Below are positions 167 to 62,586 of a stretch of 64,000 nucleotides of DNA, in pieces; the stretch's first letter is position 1, and every line of letters starts with the position of its first letter. The position numbers were made by a program, and so were the translations under genes. This stretch comes from Lentisphaerota bacterium. Lineage in GTDB: Bacteria; Verrucomicrobiota; Lentisphaeria; Victivallales; Victivallaceae. The stretch is taken from the NCBI GenBank assembly GCA_015061805.1, contig SUVV01000012.1, forward strand, positions 1 through 64,000. The letters are read 5' to 3'. The notes under the pieces are model-generated. The model did not search any database. It saw only the letters and a list, made by a program, of their open reading frames with translations, and had not been told where the DNA came from.

Positions 167-216
167 GCCTTTTTTAGGGCTCCAGCGGCATTCGCATAAA
201 GGGAGATTGGCTTTGC

Positions 217-310
217 GGGGAGGGGAAAAACCTCTTTTCACGGGAAAAGAGGTTTTTCCCCTCCCCACACCCCACCCCTTTTCGAGAAAAGCGAGGTATT
301 TTTCCGCTAT
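217..310 (-). repeat. Palindromic repeat element, copy 1 (hairpin 217-266)
   Basis: A perfect 23-bp inverted repeat with a short loop (217-239 with 244-266) is followed by the family's C-rich flank and AAAAGCGAGGTAT motif up to about 310. Element orientation is hairpin on the left and flank on the right, so transcription leaving the 5S gene would meet the hairpin first. The stem bases differ from the other copies (GGGGAGGGG instead of GGGGGAAGGG), but both arms carry the change. Confidence 0.85.
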
Positions 311-9148: not shown

Positions 9149-9149
9149 C

Positions 9150-9305
9150 AATGTGAAGTGTTTGCCTGCGGCAAACGATAAGTTTATACTTCCTGTTTTG
9201 CGACCAACGGAAGCAAAACATACCCCGCTTTTCTTGAAAAAGGATGGGGGTTTGGGGGAAGGGAAAAACTTTTTTTCTCGTGAAAAGAAGTTTTTCCCTT
9301 CCCCC
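9150..9305 (+). repeat. Palindromic repeat element, copy 2 (hairpin 9254-9305)
   Basis: On the left are a short GTTTGCCTGCGGCAAAC hairpin and the GCAAAACATACCCCGC flank. On the right is the long hairpin, 24 bp per arm with one mismatch. The hairpin ends 8 nt before the stop codon (9314-9316) of the minus-strand glycosidase-like gene, so that gene's mRNA runs straight into it. It may serve as that gene's terminator. Confidence 0.85.
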
Positions 9306-9313
9306 AAAAATCC

Positions 9314-12229
9314 TCACAGCGGTTTGATGGAAACGAGGGAGATGGTGCCGGTGAAGCCGAAGTTATTGATGCTGTGTCCGATACTGGTTTCTGCCGGGTA
9401 AAGTGCATATCCGGAGAGCGGCACGGCGCGTCCTTTTACTCCGTTGCATTCGATCTGCGCTGTTTTCTGGTCAAAGCGCACCACGCATTTATTCAGCGTT
9501 TTGGCCGAAACTTTCGGGCCGGGGACGATCACCGGTTTTCTGCCGGCTTTGCCCATGGCGTAGAAAGAGGCGAACAAACGGCCTTTGTTGATGAAGAATG
9601 TGAACGCCTGATCGGAATTGGTGATCAAAGTCTGACGGGTATTGACATTACCGGCATTGAAGTTCAAACGCAGTTCAAATCCGCTGTATGGATAGATGGT
9701 CGCCTGCGGGAAAGAAATATTGCTTTTGCCGTTGAATTTCCAGGCGAAACCATCTTTGCCGGCAATTACCTCCGGGAAATCAGCCACGTTATCCGGGGTG
9801 GATTTGGACATGTGCCGAATGGCAAGGTTGCCGTGGCTGTAGGATTCCGCAAAATAGAAGTGGTTGATAAATGCGGAATTGCATCCGAGCATACCGGAGA
9901 GGAGATTTCCTCCGGAATTTTTGACCGCAGTACCGTGAACCGGAGAGATTTCCAGATTTTGCACCGTCAGCATATTTTCGTCACATTCGACTTTGATCGG
10001 GCGCTTGTCGAAGAAGTCAAAACTGGAGAATGCGGCTTTTTTACCTGATGCTTTGAAGAGTGTTACCGGGAAACTGCGGAACGTTTTGCGTTCTTTGTCC
10101 ACAACTTCAATAAAGTACGCAGACTGCGGCAGCGCCGGATTGACCAGAAGCGTGAACTCCGCTTCTTTGCTGTTCAGAGGCGCAGGCATGATCTGCTGGA
10201 TATCTGTGTGGCGCACGACGAAATGGGTTCCGACTTTGCCGTTGGCGGCAAAGACCCGCTTTTTGACAATATCGGCAAGCGGAATTTTTCCCTTGAATAC
10301 CGGAGTTGTGACTTTGCCGGGGATAAATCCGGACAAATCAACATCCAGATATGCTTTGTCCAGATTTTTTTTGTCGATCACCAATTGCATGAAGACAGAA
10401 TTCATAATACCGGGGATGGTACGTCTGCCGGTGAATTGCCAGCCGGATTTGCCGGTGATGCAGCCGGAGAGTTTTCCGTTGCGTTGGGTGATGCAGTTGA
10501 CACCGGAAGCATTGACCACCTTGATTTCTCCTTTCAGCCGGAGATTCTTGTAGGCGTAACCGCCGAAGATGATGGAAAAGACCGCTTTATTTTCGCTTTC
10601 CAGGGCCAAATTTGCGGGGTTGTGCTGATAGATGTGGTCGCTGCCTTCGACGACTTCCACGCTGTGGAATGGGACATTGCCGGAAACTTTACCCTGCAGT
10701 TTGATCAGACCGTCGGAGGTGATTCCGGCGATTTTCAATTCAGCGCGGCACGTTGCCAGATCGCGCAGAGGTTGTTTGACCCACTTGTTGTCGGCGTTCC
10801 AGTTGGCGCGCAGTTCGACCGGAGTGAAGCCGTTGGCGAAAACTTTACCGTCAACAGAGAGTTCCGGGATGAGCAGATGATGATCAAGCACATCGGCGAC
10901 TTTCAGATTGAAGCGAAGTTCGGAAAGTTTATTGTCTGCAAGTTTGCCGGAAAAAGTTTTGACGTTATTGCCATGATGATCTTTGACGGCAAGTTGAATA
11001 TTCCGGATTTTCCCGGTGCTTTCGGCTTCGGGAACGTTGACGATCTCGAATTCGACCGTTTCACCGGCGACGAGAACTTTGCGGTAGGAGAGGATGAGAT
11101 TCGGTACTTCGGCATCATCGCCCGGTTGCCGGGGGAACAACTTGCCTTTGGCGATACCGGAGAGCGCCCGGATGATCCGCTGGGTGGAAAATGAGTTGTA
11201 TAACGTGGGGCGGAAACTGGTATTTTCGTTCTGCTCATCCCATTCGACCAGATTGATGACATCGGCACGGGCGGCGACTGCGCTGCCGACGCTGCCCCGA
11301 AGCATGGAAGTGCCGCCGCAGTTGTAGGTGAAAGTACCTTTGGCGTAGAAGTTTTCGTGTCCGACTTTGGTTCCCCAGACGAGGAGTTTGCCTTTGAATT
11401 CATCTTCGGCAAGGATACCGGTCAGGAGCGGGAGCATGACTTCCCGGTCAAAGGCATCATCATAACGGCGGAATTCATTCAGCGGCGGATAGTTGTAGTA
11501 GTAACCGTCAACACAGCGCAGCCATGCGCGGATGATATCGGCGAGTTTGTTGACATCGGCGGCGGTCAGAGTCCGGGTACCGGTGATGATGTTGGTCGGC
11601 AGTTTGTGCATCGGGACGATCAGGATGCGGTCGCCGAATTTTTCAGTCATTTTGCGTTTGAATTCCTGCCAGTACTCCGGTTTAGTGTCACCGGGGTAGG
11701 AGGTGAGCAGTAGTTTACCGTTGATGCGGTAGGATTGTTTACTGTTGAGCGCCCGTTCGACCAGAGCAAAATTCTGCTTCCAGTTGACCTTCACTTTGTA
11801 CTTGGGAGAGACCATCTCCGGCAGAACTGACAGTTGAAAACCTTCACGAGCGGCGGCACGGTAGATATCTTCGCGGCCTTTGGTCATCGGGAAAAAGGCA
11901 AATCCGTCGATTTTATAGAGATCGGTGGTCACATGGTGCATGGTTTCCCACGCTTTGTCATGGATGAATGAACCGGTATCGCTGGCGCGCAGAGAACTGT
12001 CCTGAAAGAGCGGACGGTCGACCCAGCGGTGCAGATAATCATTGCGTTCCAGACCGTATTTAAGTTGTCCTCTGGCAAAGAAGGCGGTTCTGCCGCTTGC
12101 CGGTTGGAATTTTTTACCTTTTTCGGCAAATTTCTGAAGCAGTTTTTTGGCTTCGGCATTCGGTTTCGGGGCGGCAAAAAGCGGAAAAAGTGTAGACAAA
12201 GCGATGACGCCAATGAAGAATTTTTTCAT
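9314..12229 (-). CDS. Large secreted glycosidase-like protein with C-terminal LamG-like domain
   Basis: 971 aa from ATG at 12229 (GGAG 9 nt upstream). A signal peptide is clear: MKKFFIGVIALSTLFPLFAA. Residues about 60-330 look like a TIM barrel, with IDGFAFFPMTKGRED, LLLTSYPGDTKPEY and DGYYYNYPP. This is loosely reminiscent of GH71 (alpha-1,3-glucanase) enzymes, an uncertain assignment. The middle holds several beta-rich modules. The last 150 residues (DGFAWKFNGKSNISFPQ ... IGHSINNFGFTGTIS) have the concanavalin/LamG jelly-roll pattern. It follows a pseudopilin gene by 22 nt and is probably co-transcribed with it. It ends at a palindromic repeat. Confidence 0.7.
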   Translation of the reverse strand: MKKFFIGVIALSTLFPLFAAPKPNAEAKKLLQKFAEKGKKFQPASGRTAFFARGQLKYGLERNDYLHRWVDRPLFQDSSLRASDTGSFIHDKAWETMHHVTTDLYKIDGFAFFPMTKGREDIYRAAAREGFQLSVLPEMVSPKYKVKVNWKQNFALVERALNSKQSYRINGKLLLTSYPGDTKPEYWQEFKRKMTEKFGDRILIVPMHKLPTNIITGTRTLTAADVNKLADIIRAWLRCVDGYYYNYPPLNEFRRYDDAFDREVMLPLLTGILAEDEFKGKLLVWGTKVGHENFYAKGTFTYNCGGTSMLRGSVGSAVAARADVINLVEWDEQNENTSFRPTLYNSFSTQRIIRALSGIAKGKLFPRQPGDDAEVPNLILSYRKVLVAGETVEFEIVNVPEAESTGKIRNIQLAVKDHHGNNVKTFSGKLADNKLSELRFNLKVADVLDHHLLIPELSVDGKVFANGFTPVELRANWNADNKWVKQPLRDLATCRAELKIAGITSDGLIKLQGKVSGNVPFHSVEVVEGSDHIYQHNPANLALESENKAVFSIIFGGYAYKNLRLKGEIKVVNASGVNCITQRNGKLSGCITGKSGWQFTGRRTIPGIMNSVFMQLVIDKKNLDKAYLDVDLSGFIPGKVTTPVFKGKIPLADIVKKRVFAANGKVGTHFVVRHTDIQQIMPAPLNSKEAEFTLLVNPALPQSAYFIEVVDKERKTFRSFPVTLFKASGKKAAFSSFDFFDKRPIKVECDENMLTVQNLEISPVHGTAVKNSGGNLLSGMLGCNSAFINHFYFAESYSHGNLAIRHMSKSTPDNVADFPEVIAGKDGFAWKFNGKSNISFPQATIYPYSGFELRLNFNAGNVNTRQTLITNSDQAFTFFINKGRLFASFYAMGKAGRKPVIVPGPKVSAKTLNKCVVRFDQKTAQIECNGVKGRAVPLSGYALYPAETSIGHSINNFGFTGTISLVSIKPL

Positions 12230-12251
12230 GGTTTTTCTCCGGGATTTGCAA

Positions 12252-13022
12252 TTAGTTGTCAGGCCAGTTTTCGCCGTTTGCCTTGAGTGATACATCTATT
12301 TTGCGATAGGAAGCTTTATCGTAGATGTTGGACTTCGCGGTGTCCCACCACTCCATACGCGGGGAGTAGGATTCTACATGACCATCGCCGTGTGCAGCGT
12401 TGAAGGCATTGTTTTTCTGATGGCGGATATCGATGCGGTTGACATCTTTGCCCGCATAAATCCGGTTTTCCCAGAAACTGCTGCGGTCAATGTTGTAGGT
12501 TTCTGAATCGACGAATCCAATGTAGAAAGAGGGACGTTTAAGCCGGACTAACTTTCGTGCTTCTCCGGGCAGAAGCCCCTGAAGACGGCGGTTGATGGCG
12601 TAACTGTAGGGGTAGGGCATGTTGCCGCTGCGGCGACCGATGCCGTTATCGTGCCGGGACGGACAGCGGTTGACTGAAGAATAGCCGAACCAGTTGGCAA
12701 TGGTATCGCTCGGTTTCCCGGTGATATAGTGTTGAAGCCAGGTTGATTCATAGTTCCATGGATCATAGGCCGTCCCATTGGGGCCTTTGGTTTTCTGCGG
12801 CATCATAAAGCCATCCATTTGGTCAATGTAGGCTTGGGCGGCGACACCGATTTGTTTGAGATTGCTGGCACAACTGATGCTGCGGCCGCGTTCGCGGGCG
12901 CTCTGCAATGCGGGAAGCAGTATCGCTGCCAAGATTGCAATAATGGCAATTACCACGAGAAGTTCGATAAGAGTAAAGCACGCGTGCTTTACTCCGGTGC
13001 ACCGGAGTAAAGATGTATTCAT
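12252..13022 (-). CDS. Type II/IV pseudopilin-like protein with H-x-DG type C terminus
   Basis: 256 aa. The prepilin motif [20 protein letters not shown] begins at residue 16 and leads into the usual ALQSARERG helix. The C terminus has the HGDGHVESY segment typical of the Planctomycetes/Lentisphaerae pilin-like family. The residue before the phenylalanine is cysteine, not the glycine expected by prepilin peptidase. The leader codons are made of two overlapping perfect palindromes (12971-13012). GAGG lies before the ATG. A strong promoter is seen at 13073-13101, and the downstream gene encodes a huge secreted protein. Confidence 0.85.
12971..13012. repeat. Two overlapping perfect palindromes in a pilin leader
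   Basis: Palindrome one is 12971-12994 (24 nt, centre CACGCGTG). Palindrome two is 12987-13012 (26 nt, centre GGTGCACC). They share CTTTACTC, so the order is GAGTAAAG, centre, CTTTACTC, centre, GAGTAAAG. The whole unit lies within the first 18 codons of the minus-strand pseudopilin. Confidence 0.9.
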
Positions 13023-15041: not shown

Positions 15042-15127
15042 GCGGAGGGGATACTGCAAAATAACTCTCCTGTCTGACTTGTCTGACCAGTCCGACTCGT
15101 CCGACTATCAACGCGCCAACTCAGCAA
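15042..15127. repeat. 85-bp dispersed repeat with degenerate 9-bp units (copy B)
   Basis: It is almost identical to 444-528. The core is the series of degenerate 9-mers GTCTGACTT, GTCTGACCA, GTCCGACTC, GTCCGACTA. Confidence 0.75.
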
Positions 15128-15131
15128 TCCG

Positions 15132-15385
15132 CATTGCTCCAACTGCCCGCAAAGGGCGCGTTGATTGTAATTTAGCGCTCTCCCAAATCCTCTCACAATC
15201 TCCCAAAACTCCCACCCCCTCCCATACCGGGGCGCCAGTCAGCAAGGTACGCTGTTTGTACCCCATCAAGTTGCCTTGCTCCAACTGCCCGCAAAGGGTA
15301 CGTTGCACGTAATTTAACGCTCTCCCAAATCCTCTCAAAATCTCCCACTGTTTCCCAATACTCCCACCCCGAGGTGCCAAGCCGG
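15132..15385. repeat. Imperfect 142-bp tandem repeat rich in CTCCCA tracts
   Basis: Two units start at about 15134 and 15276 with TTGCTCCAACTGCCCGCAAAGG, each running into CTCTCCCAAATCCTCTC and further CTCCCA tracts. A third partial copy of the start lies at 15027. The minus strand has evenly spaced GGGAG tracts. No protein-coding signal is seen in 14866-15510. Confidence 0.75.
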
Positions 15386-15462: not shown

Positions 15463-15510
15463 ATATACGTTGAAGTACAAAAACAATCAACTTAAAATGG
15501 GAGTATGCTT

Positions 15511-16458
15511 ATGAGTTGTAAAACGTGTGAGGTCAAGCGTAAACGCTTTACTTTGATTGAACTTCTGGTGAATACTTCTATCTCACCAATGCGTTTTTTC
15601 AAGTGCGGCGACAAACTGGAGCCGCAAAATAGTTCGCTTTTTTTGAAAGAGAAAGGGGGGGCGGGGGAAAGAGGAAACTTTTTTTCCCGTGAAAAAAAGT
15701 TTCCTTTGTCCCCCGCACACGCCCGTTTCACTTTAATAGAACTTCTGGTGGTGATCGCCATTATTGCGATATTGGCGGCGATTCTGCTCCCTGCATTGCA
15801 GAGCGCACGCCGCCGGGGACAGGGGATCGGTTGTCTCAATAACTTGAAGCAACTTTATTCAGGAGTGCTTGCTTACGGAGAAGCCAATGATGATGCCCTG
15901 CTTTCCTCCTGTTATCAGGGCGGTAAGGGCGGTTACGGTTGGTGGCAGGAACTTTACTGTTTGCAGAAATATATTTCCTACAAGCGACCTGCGCACACCT
16001 ACTTCGATCCGGATGTATTGAACTGTCCGGGGAATACTCATCGAACTGAATTTCAGGGTACTTACACGGTATATGTAAGTTATGGATATAATGCGCACGC
16101 CGGATTTTTCAACAGTGACGGCAATCCCAGCAGCAATACCGGAGCCCGCGCGCCCTGGCGCAAGTGGTCTTCCAAGAATCCATATGTTTCCAAAACTACG
16201 CTTTTTACCGAAAAGTGGACAACTTTTGCTCCGGTCAGGCTGTATGCAACCTATAAGCGCAGTATGCTTCAGTATTCCAGTAACAACAGTCTTTCCATCG
16301 GAGCAGACAAGGCTCACCCCGGCGGGGCGAACCATCTGCTTGCCGACGGACACGCGGATATATTCAACTATGCGCTGGTTTACGGCAGTTCCAATTACAC
16401 CTCGATCTGGAACGCACCTACGCAAGCAAGTTTCAAACAGATCACGGCTAACCATTGA
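15511..16458 (+). CDS. Pseudopilin-like protein with repeat-invaded leader
   Basis: 315 aa from ATG at 15511 (GGGAG 7 nt upstream). A first, truncated FTLIELLV copy lies at residues 13-20. Then come 52 residues encoded by the palindromic element ([10 protein letters not shown] ... [12 protein letters not shown]). A second, complete [20 protein letters not shown] begins at residue 73 (15727). The insertion is 180 bp, exactly 60 codons. The mature part is a normal pseudopilin ending with the H-x9-DG motif ([12 protein letters not shown]). The gene starts a promoter-driven operon with two giant secreted proteins, 12 nt before the first. Whether the 72-residue leader is still processed is unknown. 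Confidence 0.85.
15586..15716 (+). repeat. Palindromic repeat element, copy 3, in frame inside a pilin gene (hairpin 15661-15716)
   Basis: The arms GCGGGGGAAAGAGGAAAC and their complement pair with about two mismatches across some 25 bp. The flank CGCTTTTTTTGAAAG precedes the hairpin. The flank-first order relative to transcription is opposite to the intergenic copies. Reading through it gives the peptide [17 protein letters not shown] without a stop. Confidence 0.85.
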
Positions 16459-23208: not shown

Positions 23209-24450
23209 ATGAATATATTGATTCGTTTTTTCAAATATCTCTGGTTTGACAAGGGAATATCTCTGGCAGCAGCGTGGAGTTTTAACCAGCTTGCCTACGC
23301 CATCGTCTATCCTTTCGTGCCGATCTATCTTCATAAAGTGCGGGGAATGGACTATTCTCTGGTCAGCATCATTTTCCCCCTGCTCGGTATTGCGAATATC
23401 GTTGCCCCGGTGCCCTGCGGCTGGCTCACCGACCGTTTCGGTCATCAGGTGATGATGCTGGCAGGACAATTTATCCGCGGCATTATATTTTTCGGTCTGG
23501 CAGTCTGTGTCTATCTGGAAGCTCCGTTCTGGCTCTTTGCCGTCGCTCTGATGCTCAATACCGCGATCGGAGTCGCATTTCAGGTCGGCAGTGATGCCTA
23601 TCTCACCGATATCACTCAGCCGGAACAGCGCCCCGGGTATTACAGCAAGATCCGTATCGGCTACAATGTCGGATGGGCGTTGGGGCCGATGATGGGAGCA
23701 TTTTTTGCCGACACCCCGTTCTGGGCATTTTTCATTGTAACCGGTCTGCTCTGCATGGCGGGAACTTTTCAGACCTGGTTCTGCTGCTGCCGGAACACTG
23801 TTTCTGTATCTGGACGGAGCGAAACAACGCAGTTTTCCGGAGAATCTTCCGGCTTGATGAAAGAGATCTTCGGTAACCGGCGCTTTGTTTTCCTCATGCT
23901 CGGAAATCTTTTCCTGATGCTCCTGGTGTCGCAACTTTATTCGACCCTGTCGGTCTTTTCAACTTCCAGCGTCGGAATCAGCAGCAAGGCAATGGGATCG
24001 ATCTATTCGATGAATGGAACCATGGTTCTGGCATTGCAGATCCCGTTGATCGCCCTGCTTAAAAAGGTCAGAATGCCGATATTCATGCAGTTGATCGCCG
24101 GAACTCTGCTCTATGTCGCCGGATATTTCCAGCTCGGATTTGCCGGAGGGGCCCTGGCAATCGCAATCGCAGTCGCGGTGGTGACGATCGGTGAGATCAT
24201 CGTCCAACCGGCATTTTATACTCTGGTTTCCAACGAAACCCGCAAGGGCAATACCGGCAGAATGATGTCTATCAGTTCTCTGACCCGCGGTATCGGTTAT
24301 TCTGCCGGACCCTGGATCGGGGCGCAACTCTATCTCCGGAGCAACGGGATCGTGTTGTGGAGCGTGTTGAGCAGTTTTGCCGTGTGCGCTGCTGCAATGT
24401 TTCTGATTTCCGCCCTTTTCCGCAGTTCCAACCCGGAAACCTCTGCGTGA
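23209..24450 (+). CDS. Major facilitator superfamily transporter
   Basis: 413 aa from ATG at 23209, with AAGGGG 6 nt upstream. There are about twelve hydrophobic segments with the MFS loop motif between segments 2 and 3 (GWLTDRFGHQ). The second half repeats the pattern after a hydrophilic loop near 200-215. The LGPMMGAFFADTP region matches segment 5 of sugar/drug exporters. The cargo cannot be told. It is a single gene with its own promoter that ends 8 nt before a palindromic repeat. Confidence 0.88.
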   Translation: MNILIRFFKYLWFDKGISLAAAWSFNQLAYAIVYPFVPIYLHKVRGMDYSLVSIIFPLLGIANIVAPVPCGWLTDRFGHQVMMLAGQFIRGIIFFGLAVCVYLEAPFWLFAVALMLNTAIGVAFQVGSDAYLTDITQPEQRPGYYSKIRIGYNVGWALGPMMGAFFADTPFWAFFIVTGLLCMAGTFQTWFCCCRNTVSVSGRSETTQFSGESSGLMKEIFGNRRFVFLMLGNLFLMLLVSQLYSTLSVFSTSSVGISSKAMGSIYSMNGTMVLALQIPLIALLKKVRMPIFMQLIAGTLLYVAGYFQLGFAGGALAIAIAVAVVTIGEIIVQPAFYTLVSNETRKGNTGRMMSISSLTRGIGYSAGPWIGAQLYLRSNGIVLWSVLSSFAVCAAAMFLISALFRSSNPETSA

Positions 24451-24458
24451 AAAATTTT

Positions 24459-24735
24459 GGGGGAAGGGAAAAACTTTTTTTCACGAGAAAAAAAGTTTTT
24501 CCCTTCCCCCAAACCCCCATCCCTTTTCAAAAAAAGCGTGGTATGTTTTGCTCACGTTGTTCGCAAAACGGGAAATATAAACTTATCATATCCTTACTCA
24601 CGAAGTGAGCGCTTCACGTTTGCCGCAGGCAAACGCTTCACATTGCGAAGCAATGCTTCACGCAGGATTTATTCTGCTCTTCACGTTGGTTTGCATACGC
24701 AAACCAACACAATCATATCCTTACTCACGAAGTGA
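24459..24735 (-). repeat. Palindromic repeat element, copy 4, with a string of short hairpins
   Basis: The long hairpin (24459-24510, perfect 23-bp stem) lies 8 nt after the MFS stop. Then come the CCCCCATCCCTTTTC flank and a row of short palindromes: CTCACGAAGTGAG, GTTTGCCGCAGGCAAAC, ATTGCGAAGCAAT, GTTGGTTTGCATACGCAAACCAAC and CTCACGAAGTGAG again. Most are joined by GCTTCAC-type linkers. The 24451-24785 gap contains nothing else except the htpG hairpin. Confidence 0.85.
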
Positions 24736-24737
24736 GT

Positions 24738-24772
24738 GGAGAAGATACCTTTAGGAAAGGTATCTTCTCCGC
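24738..24772 (-). terminator. Hairpin after htpG
   Basis: A perfect stem GGAGAAGATACCTT / AAGGTATCTTCTCC with a 5-nt loop stands just after the htpG stop. No T-run follows on the minus strand, so the terminator role is probable, not certain. Confidence 0.55.
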
Positions 24773-24785
24773 AAGGCTGTTTGAT

Positions 24786-26663
24786 TTATTTCAACGCGGC
24801 ACCGAGCAAGGCGGTGATGGTGGAAGCAAATTCCACGGGGTTATCCAACGGACTTCCTTCGAGGAGCAGCGCCTGATTGTAAAGGGCGTTGGCAAATTTT
24901 TCCATCTGTTCCGAAGTTTCTCCGGCGGCGATCTTGGCGTTGAATGCTTCGATCAGCGGATGATCGGCATTGAGTTCAAAGATGCGCTTGCTGACCGGAA
25001 TCTCCTGATGCATGGCGCGGAAGAGACGTTCCATGTGCGGCGGAAGCGCGCTGTTGTCGACGATCAGACAGCAGGGGCTTTCAGTCAGACGGGCGCTGAA
25101 ACGGACTTCGCTCACCTTGTCGGCAAGTTTTTCCTTGAGGAAGTCGACCAGTTTGGCATATTTTTCAGCAGCGGCCTTGATTTTTTCTTCGGAATCTTTT
25201 TCTTCAAATTCGCCTTTGGTGACCGGCTTGAAACTCTTTTTGAGGTACTGGAACATGGACTGCATCACCCATTCGTCGATGGGGTCGGTCATGAACAGCA
25301 CATCGTAGCCTTTGGCGCGGAAGTATTCCAGCACCGGGGAGGAGGCGACCGAGGAACGCTTATCGCCGGTGATGTAGTAGATATCCTGCTGACTTTCGGG
25401 CATGGCATCGACATACTCTTTGAGGGTGATGTATTTGCCTTCCGGGGTGTTCATGGATTCGTAAAGGACGATATCCTTGATCTTTTCGCAGTTGACGCGG
25501 TCGGTGTGAAGACCTTCCTTGACGATTTTGCCGAATTCAGAGAAGAACTTCTCATAATTTTCGCGGCTGTTTTCCAGCAGTTTTTTCATTTCGGAAATAA
25601 CTTTGCCGGTGACCGCGGTCTGGATTTTGCCCAGAAGCGGATTCTGCTGGAGGATCTCGCGGGAAACATTCAGCGGCAGATCGCTGGAATCGACCACACC
25701 GCAGACGAAACGCAGATAATCCGGCAGCAGTTCTTTGCATTCATCGGTGATGAACATCCGTTTGATGTAGAGCTGCAGACCTTTTTTCTGGATGTCCGGC
25801 ATCAGCAGATTGAACGGTGCCTGCTTGGGCAGAAAGAGCAACGCTTTGAATTCGCTGGAACCTTCCGCTGTCATATGGATCGCCTTGAGGTATTCGGTAC
25901 CGCCGTAGTTGGAGAGGTGAGAGTAGAAACTTTTGTATTCATCATCGGTGATTTCCGACGGTTTGCGCAGCCAGATCGCTTTCTGGGAGTTGAGGACGCG
26001 GTCTTCGACAGTTTCGCTTTTATCTTCATTGACCTTGACCTGCGGCAGGATCACCGGATAGGCGATGAAGTCGGAGTACTTGCGGACGATTTCCGAAAGT
26101 TTCCAGTTTTCAAGGTAGATATCCGCATCATCTTTGAGAAAGAGTTTGATTTCGGTACCGGCTTCGGTGCGGGGCGAATCGTCCAGTTCGTAACTGCCCT
26201 CACCGGTACTGCGCCAGCAGACTGCCGGGGCATCGGAACCTGATTTTTTGGTGTGGAGTTCGACTTTGGATGCGACCATGAATGCCGAATAGAAACCTAC
26301 ACCGAACTGTCCGATAAGTTCCGGCATGTCGGTATTGTCGCCTTTTTCCGCGAGTGCGTTGATAAATTCTTTGGTTCCGCTCTTGGCGATAGTACCGATA
26401 TTGGCGGCGACTTCATCGGCGGTCATGCCGATACCGTTATCGGTGATGGTGAGGGTTTTGGCTTCTTTATCAACGGCGAGGCGGATCTGCCACTCTCTGG
26501 CAAGTTCGGTGCGGGTGAGGCTTTCAAAGCGCGCTTTGTCGATGGCGTCGGCAGCGTTGGCGACCAGTTCCCGCAAAAAGATATCGCGGTTGGAATAAAG
26601 GGAGTGGATCATCAGCTGCAGCAGCTGTTGAACTTCTGTTTTGAATTCACGTACTTCTGACAT
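24786..26663 (-). CDS. htpG: Chaperone protein HtpG (bacterial Hsp90)
   Basis: 625 aa from ATG at 26663, preferred over 26678 because GGAG lies 9 nt before it. It is an ATP-dependent cytosolic chaperone. All N-domain GHKL motifs are present: LRELVANAADAIDK (30s, Ala where most have Ser), DNGIGM, GTIAKSGTKEF and IGQFGVGFYSAF. The middle domain has GVVDSSDLPLNVSREILQQ. The C-terminal dimerisation part ends ITALLGAALK. It is a single gene, divergent from the DUF349 gene. Confidence 0.96.
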   Translation of the reverse strand: MSEVREFKTEVQQLLQLMIHSLYSNRDIFLRELVANAADAIDKARFESLTRTELAREWQIRLAVDKEAKTLTITDNGIGMTADEVAANIGTIAKSGTKEFINALAEKGDNTDMPELIGQFGVGFYSAFMVASKVELHTKKSGSDAPAVCWRSTGEGSYELDDSPRTEAGTEIKLFLKDDADIYLENWKLSEIVRKYSDFIAYPVILPQVKVNEDKSETVEDRVLNSQKAIWLRKPSEITDDEYKSFYSHLSNYGGTEYLKAIHMTAEGSSEFKALLFLPKQAPFNLLMPDIQKKGLQLYIKRMFITDECKELLPDYLRFVCGVVDSSDLPLNVSREILQQNPLLGKIQTAVTGKVISEMKKLLENSRENYEKFFSEFGKIVKEGLHTDRVNCEKIKDIVLYESMNTPEGKYITLKEYVDAMPESQQDIYYITGDKRSSVASSPVLEYFRAKGYDVLFMTDPIDEWVMQSMFQYLKKSFKPVTKGEFEEKDSEEKIKAAAEKYAKLVDFLKEKLADKVSEVRFSARLTESPCCLIVDNSALPPHMERLFRAMHQEIPVSKRIFELNADHPLIEAFNAKIAAGETSEQMEKFANALYNQALLLEGSPLDNPVEFASTITALLGAALK

Positions 26664-37501: not shown

Positions 37502-37700
37502 GTGCGGCGGTGCATCGCGGGCAATCTCGCGCCTTGCTCCTGCGCCGATGCAGTCGAGGACGCAAGTCCACTCCTGCATTGTACTCGTCGCAAAACCCGA
37601 CCTTGCCGCACCCTGCATCCGCCGATTACAGCAACGTTATTGGATCCCCGGCGTGCGGCGGTGCATCGCGGGCAATCTCGCGCCTTGCTCCTGCGCCGAT
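37502..37700. repeat. 48-bp perfect direct repeat pair
   Basis: 37502-37549 and 37653-37700 are identical over 48 bases (GTGCGGCGGTGCATCGCGGG ... TGCGCCGAT), 151 bp apart. They start 5 bp after the stop of the secreted protein. The sequence resembles the GATCTCGCTTTGCCGGGGCGCGCC repeat after tgt. Confidence 0.85.
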
Positions 37701-37739: not shown

Positions 37740-37999
37740 TGGCATTTGTGTTGGTTTGCGCAGCAAACCAACGTGAAGCGCAGGATAAATCCTGCGTGAA
37801 GCATTGCTTCGCAATGTGAAGCGTTTGCCTGTGGCAAACATGAAGCGCTCGCTTACGCGAGTAAGGATATGATGATTTTATATCTCCTGTTTGCGACCAA
37901 CGGGAGCAAACATATCCCGCTTTTTTTGAAAAGGGATGGGGGCGCGGGGGAAGGGAAAAACTTTTTTTCACGAGAAAAAAAGTTTTTCCCTTCCCCCGC
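37740..37999 (+). repeat. Palindromic repeat element, copy 5, with a string of short hairpins
   Basis: From the left: GTTGGTTTGCGCAGCAAACCAAC, GCAGGATAAATCCTGC, ATTGCTTCGCAAT, GTTTGCCTGTGGCAAAC and CTCGCTTACGCGAG, mostly joined by GTGAAGC linkers. Then come the ACCAACGGGAGCAAACATA flank and the long hairpin (37944-37999, perfect 25-bp stem). The hairpin ends 7 nt before the speE stop codon on the minus strand. Confidence 0.87.
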
Positions 38000-38006
38000 A
38001 AGCCAA

Positions 38007-38855
38007 TCACTTCTGCAGCAGACGCTGCACGAAGTTGGGGTGGGCGAACGCGGCGCGGTGGATGGCGCTGTTGTAGTAGCGCAATTGTGAGGCGATTTCC
38101 GGTTCGACTTCGCGTGCCGGGGTGCGGACATCTTTAGTGTCGGAAGCGATACAGACGCCGATCATTCCGGTGGGGTAGGTCGGGACACTGATAGCGCCGT
38201 AATCGGCGAAGTTGAAGTTGCTTCGGGAGGCGTCAAGCAGTTGTTTTACGACATCGGGCAGGAGCCATGGGGATTCGGCCTGAGTTGCGGCGACGCCGCC
38301 GGGGCGCAGGGCGCGCTTCAAATTTGCGTAGAAATCGGCGGTAAAGAGGGGAGCGCCGGGGCCGCCGGGGTCAGTGGAATCGACGATGATGAGGTCGTAG
38401 TATTCCGGTTTTTTTTGAATGAAGCAACTGCCGTCGGCGATATTTATATTGACTCTGGGGTCATTGTAACCGCAGGAGAGTTCCGGCAGGAATTTTTTTG
38501 CGGCATCGATGACATCGGCATCGATTTCGCAGATATCGAGAGTTTTTATTCCGGGGTGGCGGGCGAGTTCGCGCAGTACGCCGCCGTCGCCGCCGCCGAT
38601 GACCAGGACTTTTTCCGGATTGCCGTGGGCGTAGTAGGGCAGGTGTGCCATCATTTCCTGATAGGCGAATTCGTCGTAACTGGTCAGCTGGATGATGCCG
38701 TCGAGCATCAGCAGTTTTCCGAGTTCGCAGGTTTCAAAGATCTCTATTTTCTGAAAAGGGGTTTGCTTTTCAAAGAGTTTTTCTTTGAATTTGATACATT
38801 GACCGTAGCCGGTTCCGGCTTCGATCGCCCAGTTTCCTTGCAGCAGATGTGTCAT
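38007..38855 (-). CDS. speE: Spermidine synthase
   Basis: 282 aa. It transfers aminopropyl from decarboxylated SAM to putrescine. Motifs are QTPFQKIEIFET, LMLDGIIQLTSYDEFAYQEM, VLVIGGGDGGVLRE (SAM-site glycines), VEIDADV-like CEIDADVID, IIVDSTDPGGPG (catalytic aspartate) and FYANLKRALRPGG. No SpeD/SpeA lies in the window. Its ATG is 2 nt after the purF-like stop, so the two are one transcript, and its end runs into palindromic element copy 5. Confidence 0.95.
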   Translation of the reverse strand: MTHLLQGNWAIEAGTGYGQCIKFKEKLFEKQTPFQKIEIFETCELGKLLMLDGIIQLTSYDEFAYQEMMAHLPYYAHGNPEKVLVIGGGDGGVLRELARHPGIKTLDICEIDADVIDAAKKFLPELSCGYNDPRVNINIADGSCFIQKKPEYYDLIIVDSTDPGGPGAPLFTADFYANLKRALRPGGVAATQAESPWLLPDVVKQLLDASRSNFNFADYGAISVPTYPTGMIGVCIASDTKDVRTPAREVEPEIASQLRYYNSAIHRAAFAHPNFVQRLLQK

Positions 38856-55888: not shown

Positions 55889-56100
55889 ACGGAGCGATCT
55901 CGCTTTGCCGGAGCGCGCCTTGCGGCGCTCGATCCTCCAGTCACGTACGCCAGTACGCTCCTGTCGGCTCTTTCTTGCAAAACGCGCCCGGCTGTGCGAT
56001 ATCGCTCCTGATTCCGGGCGGCTTGGTTTGCGCCAATCGCCGGGCTGTTCGCCCGGCAGGCGTGAGGTAGTGTTTTTTTCGCCTGACGGCGATGATTATG
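55889..56100 (+). repeat. Dispersed repeat shared with the region after tgt
   Basis: It begins 3 nt after the DUF1015 stop with TCACGGAGCGATCTCGCTTTG and repeats the module order seen at 14869-15012, with an extra 75-bp segment in the middle. It leads into the tandem array. Confidence 0.75.
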
Positions 56101-56535
56101 GCGCCAATCGCCGGGCTGTTCGCCCGGCAGGCGGGATGAAGTGTTTGTTTCGCCTGACGGCGATGATTATGGCGCCAATCGCCGGGCTGTTCGCCCGGCA
56201 GGCGGGATGAAGTGTTTGTTTCGCCTGACGGCGATGTTGGGAGCGCCAATCGCCGGGCTGTTCGCCCGGCAGGCGTGAGGTAGCGTTTTTTTCGCCTGAC
56301 GGCGATGTTGGGAGCGCCAATCGCCGGGCTGTTCGCCCGGCAGGCGTGAGGTAGTGTTTGTTTCGCCTGACGGGGCGATGTCAGGAGCGCCAATCGCCGG
56401 GCTGTTCGCCCGGCAGGCGGGATGGTGTGTTTGTTTCGCCTGACGGCGATGTCAGGAGCGCCAATCGCCGGAGTGTTCGCCCGGCAGGCGGGATGGTGTG
56501 TTTGTTTCGCCTGACGGTATTCCGGAGGAGCATAC
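56031..56535 (+). repeat. 71-bp tandem repeat array, seven copies
   Basis: Units start at 56031, 56102, 56173, 56244, 56315, 56388 and 56459 (steps 71, 71, 71, 71, 73, 71). Each holds the hairpin GCCGGGCTGTTCGCCCGGC, then CAGGCG, a variable T/G-rich spacer and CGCCTGACGGCG. 71 is not a multiple of 3, so open frames across it change register in each unit and are not genes. The remaining 56536-56675 is the rpmA leader. Confidence 0.92.
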
Positions 56536-59999: not shown

Positions 60000-60195
60000 A
60001 CCCCGCTTGAAGTGTTGGTTCGCGATGCAAACCAACGTGAAGCACTCACTTCGTGAGTAAGGACATGATAATTTTATATTTTCCGTTTTGCGAGCAACGC
60101 GAGCAAAACATACCCCGCTTTTTTTGAAAAGAGATGGGGGTGTGGGGGAAGGGAAAAACTTTTTTTCACGAGAAAAAAAGTTTTTCCCTTCCCCC
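60000..60195 (+). repeat. Palindromic repeat element, copy 6, with short hairpins (long hairpin 60144-60195)
   Basis: GTTGGTTCGCGATGCAAACCAAC and CTCACTTCGTGAG precede the GCAAAACATACCCCGC flank and the perfect 23-bp hairpin. It ends 19 nt before the stop codon of the minus-strand oxidoreductase. The 59858-60214 interval holds only this and the glnS terminator. Confidence 0.86.
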
Positions 60196-60214: not shown

Positions 60215-61429
60215 TCAGAGCAGTTCCTGAACTTTACATTTCTTGCCGGTTTTCATGCTTTCGACGACGGCGCATCCGGTCAGGACGGCTTGGACACCAT
60301 CCATCAGAGTCGGGGCTTTAGGGGAGGGCGGATTGCTGAAAATGTCGCTGAATACCGCTGAATCCGCGCCGCCGTGACCGCCTTTACCTTCGGCGAATTC
60401 GATCTCTTCAAATCCGGGTTGACGGAAGCGGAAAAGACGCAGCGTGGAGGTGTAAACCAGATTGTCATCGTGTACATCATTATCATTGACGATCACTTCC
60501 CGGACATAGGTGTGGCGGGATTCCAGGCGACCTTTTTCGCCTTCGACGATGATGATTTCACCTTCGTACTGGGCATGGGCGCACAGCGAATAACTGCACA
60601 TGATGCCGTTGGCAAACTTTATGGAGGCGGTATAATTATCTTCGATATCGATTTCCGGAGAGTAGATGCACAAATCCGGAGTGTAGATTTCAGACTGGAA
60701 AATCTTGCGGTTGTAGTCGCTGTAATCGGGACAGACTTTGGCGTGTTCGCAGGTGCGGCAGTTGACACCTTCGTATTGGTGCGGTGCTTTGCTGCCGTAA
60801 GCGGTCAGACAGCCGTCCGCCATGACTTCGACGGCGTGAGAATTCAAAAGATAGTTCATCTTGTCGAAGTGGTGACAACTTTTGTGAAGCTGCAGACCGT
60901 TGGAATTTTTGCGGCGGGAGTTCCAGCGGCGGAAATAACTGGTTCCGTGTTTACGGTCGAGCATTTCGGCATATTCCATACGCATGACTCTGCCGATGAC
61001 ACCCTGCTCGATCAATTCTTTCATCTTGACGGTCATAGGCAGATAACGGGCGTTGTGGCTGGTCACGGCGTAGACTTCCGGGTTGCGCGCCTGGGCAGCG
61101 AGGATATCGCGGCACTGTTCAGGGGAGATGCAAAGCGGTTTTTCGGAAACGCAGGCGATCTTGCGGTCAAGCGCCTTGACGATATATTCCCGGTGAGTGG
61201 CATCGACGGTGGTCACGATCACCATATCGGGAGCAAGTTCATCACACATCCTGTCGAAATCGGTGTAGTGGGGGACATCCAGTTTGTATACTTCTGAAAA
61301 GCCTTTCATTTTTCCGGGATCGCAGTCCATGAGGCCGATGATGGTGTATTCATCAGCATATTTGTTGCGCAACGTGTTGAGAAACGCGGTTGCCCGCATA
61401 CTGGCTCCGACCAATACGACTTTTTTCAT
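60215..61429 (-). CDS. Gfo/Idh/MocA family oxidoreductase
   Basis: 404 aa from ATG at 61429. An upstream ATG at 61474 lacks a ribosome site. The N-terminal dinucleotide fold starts KKVVLVGASMRATAFLNTL. The family signature is VSEKPLCISPEQC, with the catalytic lysine. The C-terminal alpha/beta domain contains CRTCEHAKVCPDYS, four closely spaced cysteines that look like a metal site. It oxidises or reduces sugars or inositols with NAD(P). The substrate is unknown. It is a single gene. Confidence 0.9.
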   Translation of the reverse strand: MKKVVLVGASMRATAFLNTLRNKYADEYTIIGLMDCDPGKMKGFSEVYKLDVPHYTDFDRMCDELAPDMVIVTTVDATHREYIVKALDRKIACVSEKPLCISPEQCRDILAAQARNPEVYAVTSHNARYLPMTVKMKELIEQGVIGRVMRMEYAEMLDRKHGTSYFRRWNSRRKNSNGLQLHKSCHHFDKMNYLLNSHAVEVMADGCLTAYGSKAPHQYEGVNCRTCEHAKVCPDYSDYNRKIFQSEIYTPDLCIYSPEIDIEDNYTASIKFANGIMCSYSLCAHAQYEGEIIIVEGEKGRLESRHTYVREVIVNDNDVHDDNLVYTSTLRLFRFRQPGFEEIEFAEGKGGHGGADSAVFSDIFSNPPSPKAPTLMDGVQAVLTGCAVVESMKTGKKCKVQELL

Positions 61430-61575
61430 AGCAAATTTACTCCACTTTGTAAAGTTATTTTCCAATTCTGTCAAATAATATACATTCTGGTTTGTTACAA
61501 ATCAAGGCGGTGCATGAAAAAATGTGCGATTCAAAGTTCATGGGGATAAAAAATGGAAAAAAGTTAAAACGGGTA

Positions 61576-61604: not shown

Positions 61605-61653
61605 GTAATATAACACGATATCAATGATATTTTTCAAGAAAGGAGAAATCATT

Positions 61654-62586
61654 ATGAGGGGTGATCGTTTTCAGCACAGGTGTTTCCGCTTCACACTTAT
61701 CGAACTTCTGGTGGATACTGTTATCTCATCTCTGCGTTTTTTCAAGCGCGGCGACAAACTGGAGGTGCAAAATACTCCGCTTTTTTTGAGCGGCAAACGT
61801 GCCGCTTCGGAGGTGTCGCGCCCATCCCGTTGGTCGGGCTTGATCGAATCTCTTAAAAATACCCCGCTTTTCTTGAAAAGGGGTGAGGGGTTGGGAGAGG
61901 GGAAAAACCTCTTTTCCCGTGAAAAGAAGTTTTTCCCCTCTCCCATAAAGCCTTTCACTTTAATAGAATTGCTGGTTGTGATTGCCATCATCGCGATCCT
62001 TGCGGCAATGCTGCTGCCGGCTCTGCAGAGTGCCCGGGAACGGGGAAAGACTGCCAACTGTATTTCCATGCGTAAGCAGGTCGGCATGTGGGTATTCAAC
62101 TATACCGATGTTTTTGACGGCAGGATGATGCCTGTAACGTGGGGCGGCGGCGGAGCTACTGAACGCTGGTACAGTGCCATGTATCAGGGTAAGATCACCA
62201 AGTGGAACCGTCTTGACCAGTACTACGGCTGTCCCAACGCTATCTCTGACAGCATGCCGGCATTCGGTGAAGCGACGCGAACCGCCGGAGCATCGATCCA
62301 GTACAACTACCGTTTGAGCCGCATTAAAATCGATCAGGCGCGCAATCCGTCCATAAAATTTGTCATCACCGACAGTATCAACGGAGTATATTTTCATGGA
62401 GATTTGGATAACCGTATTTCCAAAGATATAAATCCCGCCTCCGGTTCCAGACGGGGATTTTATCCGTGGCACAACAATAAAAAAGCCGGAACCATGCTTT
62501 ATCTTGACGGACATGCGGATTTGCTTAAGATGGTGAATAATGACATTCCGTCCGGTTCCAGATACTATTATCATGACAAACCCTGA
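61654..62586 (+). CDS. Pseudopilin-like protein with doubly repeat-invaded leader
   Basis: 310 aa from ATG at 61654 (AAGGAG 8 nt before). A truncated FTLIELLV copy is at residues 13-20. After it come [10 protein letters not shown], two NTPLFL segments and [12 protein letters not shown] encoded by repeat DNA. The complete [20 protein letters not shown] starts at residue 101 (61954). The insertion is 264 bp, exactly 88 codons. The mature part is a normal pseudopilin with a C-terminal [14 protein letters not shown] motif. It leads an operon with a secreted DUF4838 protein, 12 nt downstream. Confidence 0.85.
61739..61944 (+). repeat. Palindromic repeat element, copy 7, in frame inside a pilin gene (hairpin 61893-61944)
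   Basis: Two TACTCCGC/TACCCCGC flank copies (61769-61790 and 61859-61880) precede a hairpin with arms GGGAGAGGGGAAAAACCTC and its complement (one mismatch in about 24 bp). The stem bases differ from the other copies on both sides. Confidence 0.85.

Follow-up and report, generated by a model that had tools for sequence, protein, structure and literature searches.

The window, by which we mean the whole 64,000-nucleotide stretch of DNA that was analyzed, is contig C8 of a 2.29 Mb Lentisphaeria MAG (G000) that is assembled in 34 contigs. A repeat in which short hairpins are strung on one fixed seven-letter linker lies in it at several places, one of which (copy 1) is immediately downstream of htpG. 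The copies and their parts are as follows.

24464-24736, minus strand: copy 1
24456-24513, plus strand: copy 1, long hairpin H, with a stem of 27 bp and the loop ACGA; it begins 5 nt past the TGA stop codon (24448-24450) of the upstream gene
24514-24596, minus strand: copy 1, hairpin modules G and F and the AT-rich spacer s
24597-24609, minus strand: copy 1, module E, CTCACgaaGTGAG
24611-24617, minus strand: copy 1, linker GTGAAGC (GCTTCAC on the plus strand), E/D side
24618-24634, minus strand: copy 1, module D, GTTTGCCgcaGGCAAAC
24635-24641, minus strand: copy 1, linker GTGAAGC, D/C side
24642-24654, minus strand: copy 1, module C, ATTGCgaaGCAAT
24655-24661, minus strand: copy 1, linker GTGAAGC, C/B side
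24662-24677, minus strand: copy 1, module B, GCAGGAT..ATTCTGC with one mismatch
24678-24684, minus strand: copy 1, linker GTGAAGA, B/A side
24685-24708, minus strand: copy 1, module A, GTTGGTTTGC..GCAAACCAAC
24712-24736, minus strand: copy 1, remnant (s and E) of a second tandem unit
37745-37997, plus strand: copy 2
37750-37861, plus strand: copy 2, complete A-B-C-D-E unit with linkers at 37773-37779, 37796-37802, 37816-37822, and 37840-37846
37862-37945, plus strand: copy 2, spacer s and modules F and G
37946-37997, plus strand: copy 2, long hairpin H, with the minus-strand gene 38007-38855 ending at a stop codon about 10 nt away
60012-60195, plus strand: copy 3
60014-60058, plus strand: copy 3, A-linker-E without B, C, and D, the junction being exactly at linker 60037-60043
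60059-60195, plus strand: copy 3, s-F-G-H, with H adjoining the stop codon of the minus-strand gene 60215-61474
9149-9305, plus strand: copy 4, shortened, with a C remnant and linker, D (9160-9176), F, G, and H (9254-9305), the last adjoining the stop codon of the minus-strand gene 9314-12295
216-303, minus strand: copy consisting only of G-H, adjoining a 5S rRNA gene
15547-15750, plus strand: in-frame F-G-H cassette in the prepilin-like gene 15505-16458, between two FTLIELLV codings
61690-61977, plus strand: in-frame cassette (F-type hairpins, G, and H) in the prepilin-like gene 61624-62586, between two FTLIELLV codings

It is confirmed that these copies constitute a palindromic-repeat family and are not random DNA. 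The long hairpin H is present 62 times in G000, and its reversed-pattern control gave none; the triple-linker pattern GTGAAGN{10,25}GTGAAGN{10,25}GTGAAG is present 66 times genome-wide (0 in the control), and the short-hairpin string gave about 97 BLAST pieces in G000. Within the window GTTTGCCnnnGGCAAAC occurs four times where 0.4 is expected, and GTGAAGC 17 times where 8.3 is expected, the latter excess being modest because a 7-mer is short. Exact matches to the string in named genomes are limited to Lentisphaerae/Lentisphaeria MAGs (SIG92, SIG93, SIG96, RGIG4094 from roe deer caecum, and RGIG5537 from sheep colon), and the open-access literature on Lentisphaerae repeats contains no description of the element. 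Several contigs of the assembly end inside repeat copies (G000:C4:40, C6:78136, C12:90, C15:57132, C17:55754, and C21:46), and the number of copies in the MAG is therefore probably underestimated. A 48-nt perfect direct repeat (37502-37549 and 37653-37700, 151 bp apart) lies beside copy 2.

Listing of the modules at about 60 loci gave one strictly kept order, [A-B-C-D-E-s]n-F-G-H with n = 0-5. Module A is GTTGGTTTGC..GCAAACCAAC; B is GCAGGAT..ATCCTGC or GACGGAT..ATCCGTC; C is ATTGC..GCAAT, with GCGAAGC within it; D is GTTTGCC..GGCAAAC; and E is CTCAC..GTGAG or CTCGC..GCGAG. The spacer s, TAAGGATATGAT, is followed by F, a GC-rich hairpin of which there are two or three variants, some with a nested hairpin, then by G, a weak hairpin (CCGCTTTTTTTGAAAAGG), and finally by H (GGGGGAAGGGAAAAACTTTTTTTC..GAAAAAAAGTTTTTCCCTTCCCCC). 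The left ends of the arrays differ (A, C, D, E, s, F, or G may be the start), whereas on the right nearly every copy finishes with G-H. A preliminary description of this DNA had listed palindromes and linkers that all lie where it put them, had seen that the order is kept while some modules are missing, and had placed a shortened version at 9150, which is copy 4. The three intervals that it gave (24590-24735, 37740-37870, and 60000-60062) are the short-hairpin parts beside the long hairpins. Its GTGAAGC-like linker is present in variable form (GTGAAG[ACT] or ATGAAGC among A to E), and the full unit also takes in the spacer, the two further hairpins F and G, and H. Some copies (L051 and L052 in G000) carry an extra segment of about 100-130 nt, TTCCCATT..GGGGAGA..TTTTTTCAATAAC.., between the spacer and F, and our own module list is therefore incomplete as well.

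The linker is more lasting than the hairpins that it joins. When 241 genomes of the phylum were searched for three GTGAAG at hairpin spacing, GTGAAG/CTTCAC chains were found in the genus of G000, in three other genera of its family (G035, G207, and G232), and in two genera of another family (G038 and G249), a count from which the many matches in more distant genomes that were plain tandem or coding repeats were left out. The hairpins in the chains of these relatives are quite different (AAAAGGCTGCGCCTTTT, TTGTGCTTCGCACA, GCGGCTTCGCCGC, GCTTGACTGTGTCAAGC, and others). What lies between linkers is mostly palindromic, far beyond chance: among 151 distinct inter-linker spacers 74% contain a perfect stem of no fewer than 5 bp, vs. 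2.6% after shuffling and 3.7% for segments drawn at random from the window, and such a stem is terminal in 110 of the 151, with 44 different arms. Stem changes are compensated in module B (GCAGGAT/ATCCTGC, GACGGAT/ATCCGTC, and GCCGGGAA/TTCCCGGC), module D (GTTTGCC/GGCAAAC, GTTTACC/GGTAAAC, and GTTTGTC/GACAAAC), and module E (CTCAC/GTGAG and CTCGC/GCGAG); for this comparison stems were aligned from their outer ends, MAFFT gaps having shifted the module B stems out of register. Persistence across genera in spite of differing hairpins gives indirect support, at the level of sequence, to the idea that the linker is a putative recognition site.

The element has a fixed place and direction with respect to genes, a feature not noted in the preliminary description. 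In G000 57 copies of H were parsed, of which six are in frame inside prepilin genes. Among intergenic copies with a scored neighbor, a gene 3′ end faces H in 45 of 49 (p = 4e-10, a nominal value, as repeat copies are not independent), and in 42 of those 45 H is within 60 nt of that end (median 21 nt), although the ORF calls are mechanical and a few neighbor assignments may be wrong. A gene 3′ end also faces H in 18 of 22 cases in relatives. In the sense direction of that gene, the stop codon is followed by H, then by G, F, the spacer, and E, after which come CTTCAC, D, CTTCAC, C, and the rest of the string.

A different kind of 3′ end is occupied in relatives, where a chain ending in GAAGnCTTnCGnCTTCG abuts the 3′ ends of tRNA genes at 28 places (ARAGORN found the tRNA at 27), in a sample biased by a search pattern that demanded a tRNA-like TCGAAC. 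In 22 of these 28 chains the final hairpin has an outer arm that is complementary, over at least 5 nt, to the end of the adjoining tRNA itself, the matched ends being CGCCA (Ser), CACCA (Val), GACCA (Pro), and TGCCA (Arg); when arms were swapped among tRNA classes, 0 of 282 were complementary. The non-matching chains include another Pro copy with a single mismatch, and His, Asn, and one Arg copy in which the arm lacks a match. The outer base pairs of H also vary with their complement (2.29 of 3 vs. 1.59 shuffled), but this is weaker evidence and a poorer sign of templating than the tRNA arms because part of the flank belongs to the element. The placement and strand rule and the complementarity between arm and target are thus established.

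The confirmed in-frame copies, also absent from the preliminary description, are all in prepilin genes, where chains lie in frame between two copies of FTLIELLV; 17 of the 38 prepilin ORFs recovered from G000 have an H-type cassette. In the prepilin gene L226 a linker chain joined by GCTTCAT has compensated hairpins of its own, and the FTLI codons themselves take part in the last of these hairpins; the FTLI hairpins track the synonymous Ile codon, ATC or ATT. TTCAC (Phe-Thr) is present at the last FTLIELL in 16 of 18 cassette-bearing ORFs vs. 8 of 20 plain ones, and since cassette copies are related to one another this is only suggestive of a tie between TTCAC and the cassette. One repeat family has here repeatedly extended the leader region of one protein class, and we found no description of Victivallis prepilin cassettes in the open-access literature. 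The prepilin-like family is large in G000 (50 PF07963 matches), and in many of its members (L221-L259 and window genes 15505-16458 and 61624-62586) FTLIELLV is duplicated and the leader region contains a repeat cassette in frame.

The hairpins are tied to one strand, which the preliminary description likewise did not report. Single-strand folding of the 24590-24712 string gives a z of about -6.5 to -6.8 on either strand. GNA and GNNA loops are the rule for very stable DNA mini-hairpins (PMC4686876); they are found on the CTTCAC strand in 57 of 100 spacers having 3-4 nt loops, and 24 of 35 distinct arms have a majority of such loops on that strand, vs. none on the opposite strand. Most tetraloops (GTCA, GACA, and GCCA) fall outside the RNA GNRA rule, so RNA stability accounts for them less well. 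From this loop bias it is probably the sense strand that folds, and it would do so as DNA.

The main rival explanation is that the chains are functional RNA, that is, 3′ UTR elements selected for transcript protection or termination, in which an unpaired CUUCAC would be bound by a putative RNA-binding protein and the gain and loss of modules would be neutral. Compensated stem changes and the RNA fold of the whole 3′ region (z = -10.7) agree with it, as do the sense orientation and the location 10-50 nt past stop codons or directly after tRNA 3′ ends; post-stop placement and sense orientation also fit selection for an RNA function, and in this respect count against the single-stranded DNA mechanism favored below. 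Against the RNA explanation, sites are not kept among species, copies are in frame within prepilin genes, the loops obey the DNA rule rather than the RNA GNRA rule, and arms that copy the tRNA end would be needless for a terminator. At window 24300-24900, the sole copy scanned, there is neither an intrinsic-terminator pattern nor a T tract after the stem, and a known RNA family was rejected, as no Rfam family matched the element (at the gathering score, 5S rRNA alone was matched in the window). We regard the RNA explanation as unlikely, although an RNA role at 3′ ends could coexist with a DNA mechanism.

The way in which copies change bears on the remaining alternatives. Losses within a unit join linker to linker, giving A-E junctions at 60014-60058, L085, and L055 and an A-D junction in L078; the exception is a deletion in L059 that ends inside E. 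Whole units recur in tandem, one to five per locus; they are 94.4% alike within a locus and 92.8% between loci, a difference above that in all 2000 permutations. At loci shared with the sister genome G018, G-H is kept and the number of units is different, so G-H is the more stable part: L059 of G000 has one unit and remnants vs. four units at L126 of G018, and window 37745 has one unit where L105 of G018 has none, only a nested F-type hairpin and G-H. The gene-proximal G-H is the steadier part and the hairpin string is the part that expands and contracts. Module order, linker-precise loss, tandem units, and differences between species are established by these observations, and they bear out the earlier proposal of a modular element that gains and loses whole hairpins. 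Downstream of htpG (window 24464) the copy is absent in 10 of 10 relatives inspected. No terminal inverted repeat of the element was seen by eye, and no target-site duplication or new insertion was demonstrable among near-identical strains, the relatives and empty orthologous sites being too diverged.

Linker-precise deletions, tandem arrays, and slightly higher unit identity within a locus would also be produced if an old, immobile palindromic repeat changed in size passively, by replication slippage and unequal exchange at linkers or units. Local slippage is insufficient, however, because dozens of dispersed copies lie at non-orthologous sites, their uniform end adjoins stop codons, and the arms are fitted to each tRNA class; we consider this explanation quite improbable. 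Still less probable, and already weakened, is mobilization of a non-autonomous REP/BIME in trans by a RAYT (Y1 HUH transposase) with the linker in the role of the GTAG tag, as although the REP-like unpaired short motif beside variable hairpins, the intergenic 3′ placement, and the intragenic copies fit it (PMC3733652), and Y1 relatives occur in the order, the tag is GTGAAG and neither GTAG nor CGTC, the chains run head-to-tail with differing hairpins vs. the head-head dimers typical of REPs, and PF01797 (RAYT/IS200-type Y1) is absent from the chain-rich genomes G015, G018, G031, and G003 (incomplete MAGs) and degenerate in G000, where an IS200/RAYT-type Y1 transposase is broken by three stop codons (G000:C29:20906-21220; L017, L094).

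A RAYT partner was accordingly rejected as a current requirement, no intact one being present in the chain-richest of these incomplete MAGs. A reverse transcriptase was rejected as a requirement as well (no match in G000, G031, G003, G008, G011, or G038), and so was a phage origin, since neither the chain nor the terminal module of the tRNA type matched anything in viral contigs. A search for an IS91-type Y2 transposase gave no match, and the control genomes likewise gave none.

The reading that we prefer, with a probability of roughly 0.55, is that these are BOX/REP-like modular palindromic repeats that move and rearrange as single-stranded DNA hairpins, with the linker as a putative exchange or recognition site. 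Each basic brick would consist of a single hairpin and the linker, which reads CTTCAC in the sense direction of the preceding gene, and bricks would be chained behind the long anchoring hairpin directly past gene 3′ ends. When the CTTCAC strand becomes single-stranded in replication or transcription, it could fold into successive, very stable DNA mini-hairpins between which the linkers stay unpaired, and a putative single-stranded DNA-processing or recombination activity acting at the unpaired linkers might then cause whole hairpins or units to be lost, duplicated, or moved elsewhere. The hairpin adjoining the target would take its outer arm from the target itself (the tRNA end or the prepilin FTLI codons); the fit of this arm suggests either that the target was copied by folding back or that base pairing guided the joining. 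The transcribed chain would be a structured 3′ UTR, probably a by-product that the cell tolerates or that serves it by protecting the 3′ end. The single-stranded intermediate, the linker as an enzyme site, the templated arm, and any benefit are what we infer. A more specific version, which we hold to be doubtful, is that the element is a distinct Lentisphaeria mobile DNA, in which chains of single-stranded mini-hairpins integrate at gene and tRNA 3′ ends and at prepilin FTLIELLV codons, the terminal palindrome is copied from the target or selected by pairing with it, and whole hairpins recombine at a CTTCAC core that prepilin genes carry as Phe-Thr codons.

The element is an unusually modular, new addition to the bacterial palindromic repeats. 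It resembles the Neisserial intergenic mosaic elements (NIME), which are intergenic mosaics of a conserved short repeat (dRS3) and variable segments, in being such a mosaic, but its linker is 6-7 nt long and a direct rather than an inverted repeat; identity with NIME was rejected, as dRS3 (ATTCCCN8GGGAAT) is absent from the window with up to one mismatch allowed. By analogy it would seem to work most like BOX in its modularity and like REP in its tag, hairpin, and 3′ placement, with in-frame copies like those of the Rickettsia palindromic elements (RPE). BOX of Streptococcus pneumoniae is a modular, hairpin-rich interspersed repeat with a variable number of internal modules and about 100 or more copies, intergenic and in some cases read as ORFs (PMC3049150). 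The likeness seen is one of architecture (ordered modules in variable internal number, here n = 0-5); unlike BOX, the present element has five different hairpin modules on one linker, a linker common to many genera, and an anchor past stop codons. REP/BIME repeats with RAYTs (GTAG and CGTC super-families) have short stems beside an unpaired tag and lie mostly downstream of genes and sometimes within them (PMC3733652), as here, but the tag here is GTGAAG/CTTCAC, with no GTAG or CGTC at the foot of the stem, the hairpins differ along one chain, and chain-rich genomes (incomplete MAGs) have no intact RAYT. RPEs are palindromic repeats found both between genes and in frame within protein genes (PMC10969869); our in-frame copies are like them in the latter respect, yet occupy one site (FTLIELLV) in one gene class, prepilins, rather than unrelated genes. 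The pneumococcal SPRITE, a terminator-like long-stem repeat near the 3′ ends of convergent genes (PMC3049150), is matched by H in its long stem and location, but at the copy scanned the stem of H is not followed by a T tract.

It is an old open question how small palindromic repeats that lack a transposase originate, spread, and change, and for CGTC-type REPs one survey leaves it open (PMC3733652). In the present element the parts are cleanly separate: the linker is constant, the hairpins are interchangeable, the strand follows a rule, and the terminal arm matches each target. Direct tests are thereby possible both of where exchange takes place and of how the palindromes arise.

Two other repeats were seen in the window. 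Between genes at 15122-15347 there are 142-bp spaced direct repeats with CTCCCA-rich stretches, and at 56017-56517 there is another tandem hairpin array, not linked by GTGAAG, in which a unit of 71 bp, containing GCCAATCGCCGGGCTGTTCGCCCGGCAGGCG and as a second hairpin TCGCCTGACGGCGA, recurs about seven times.
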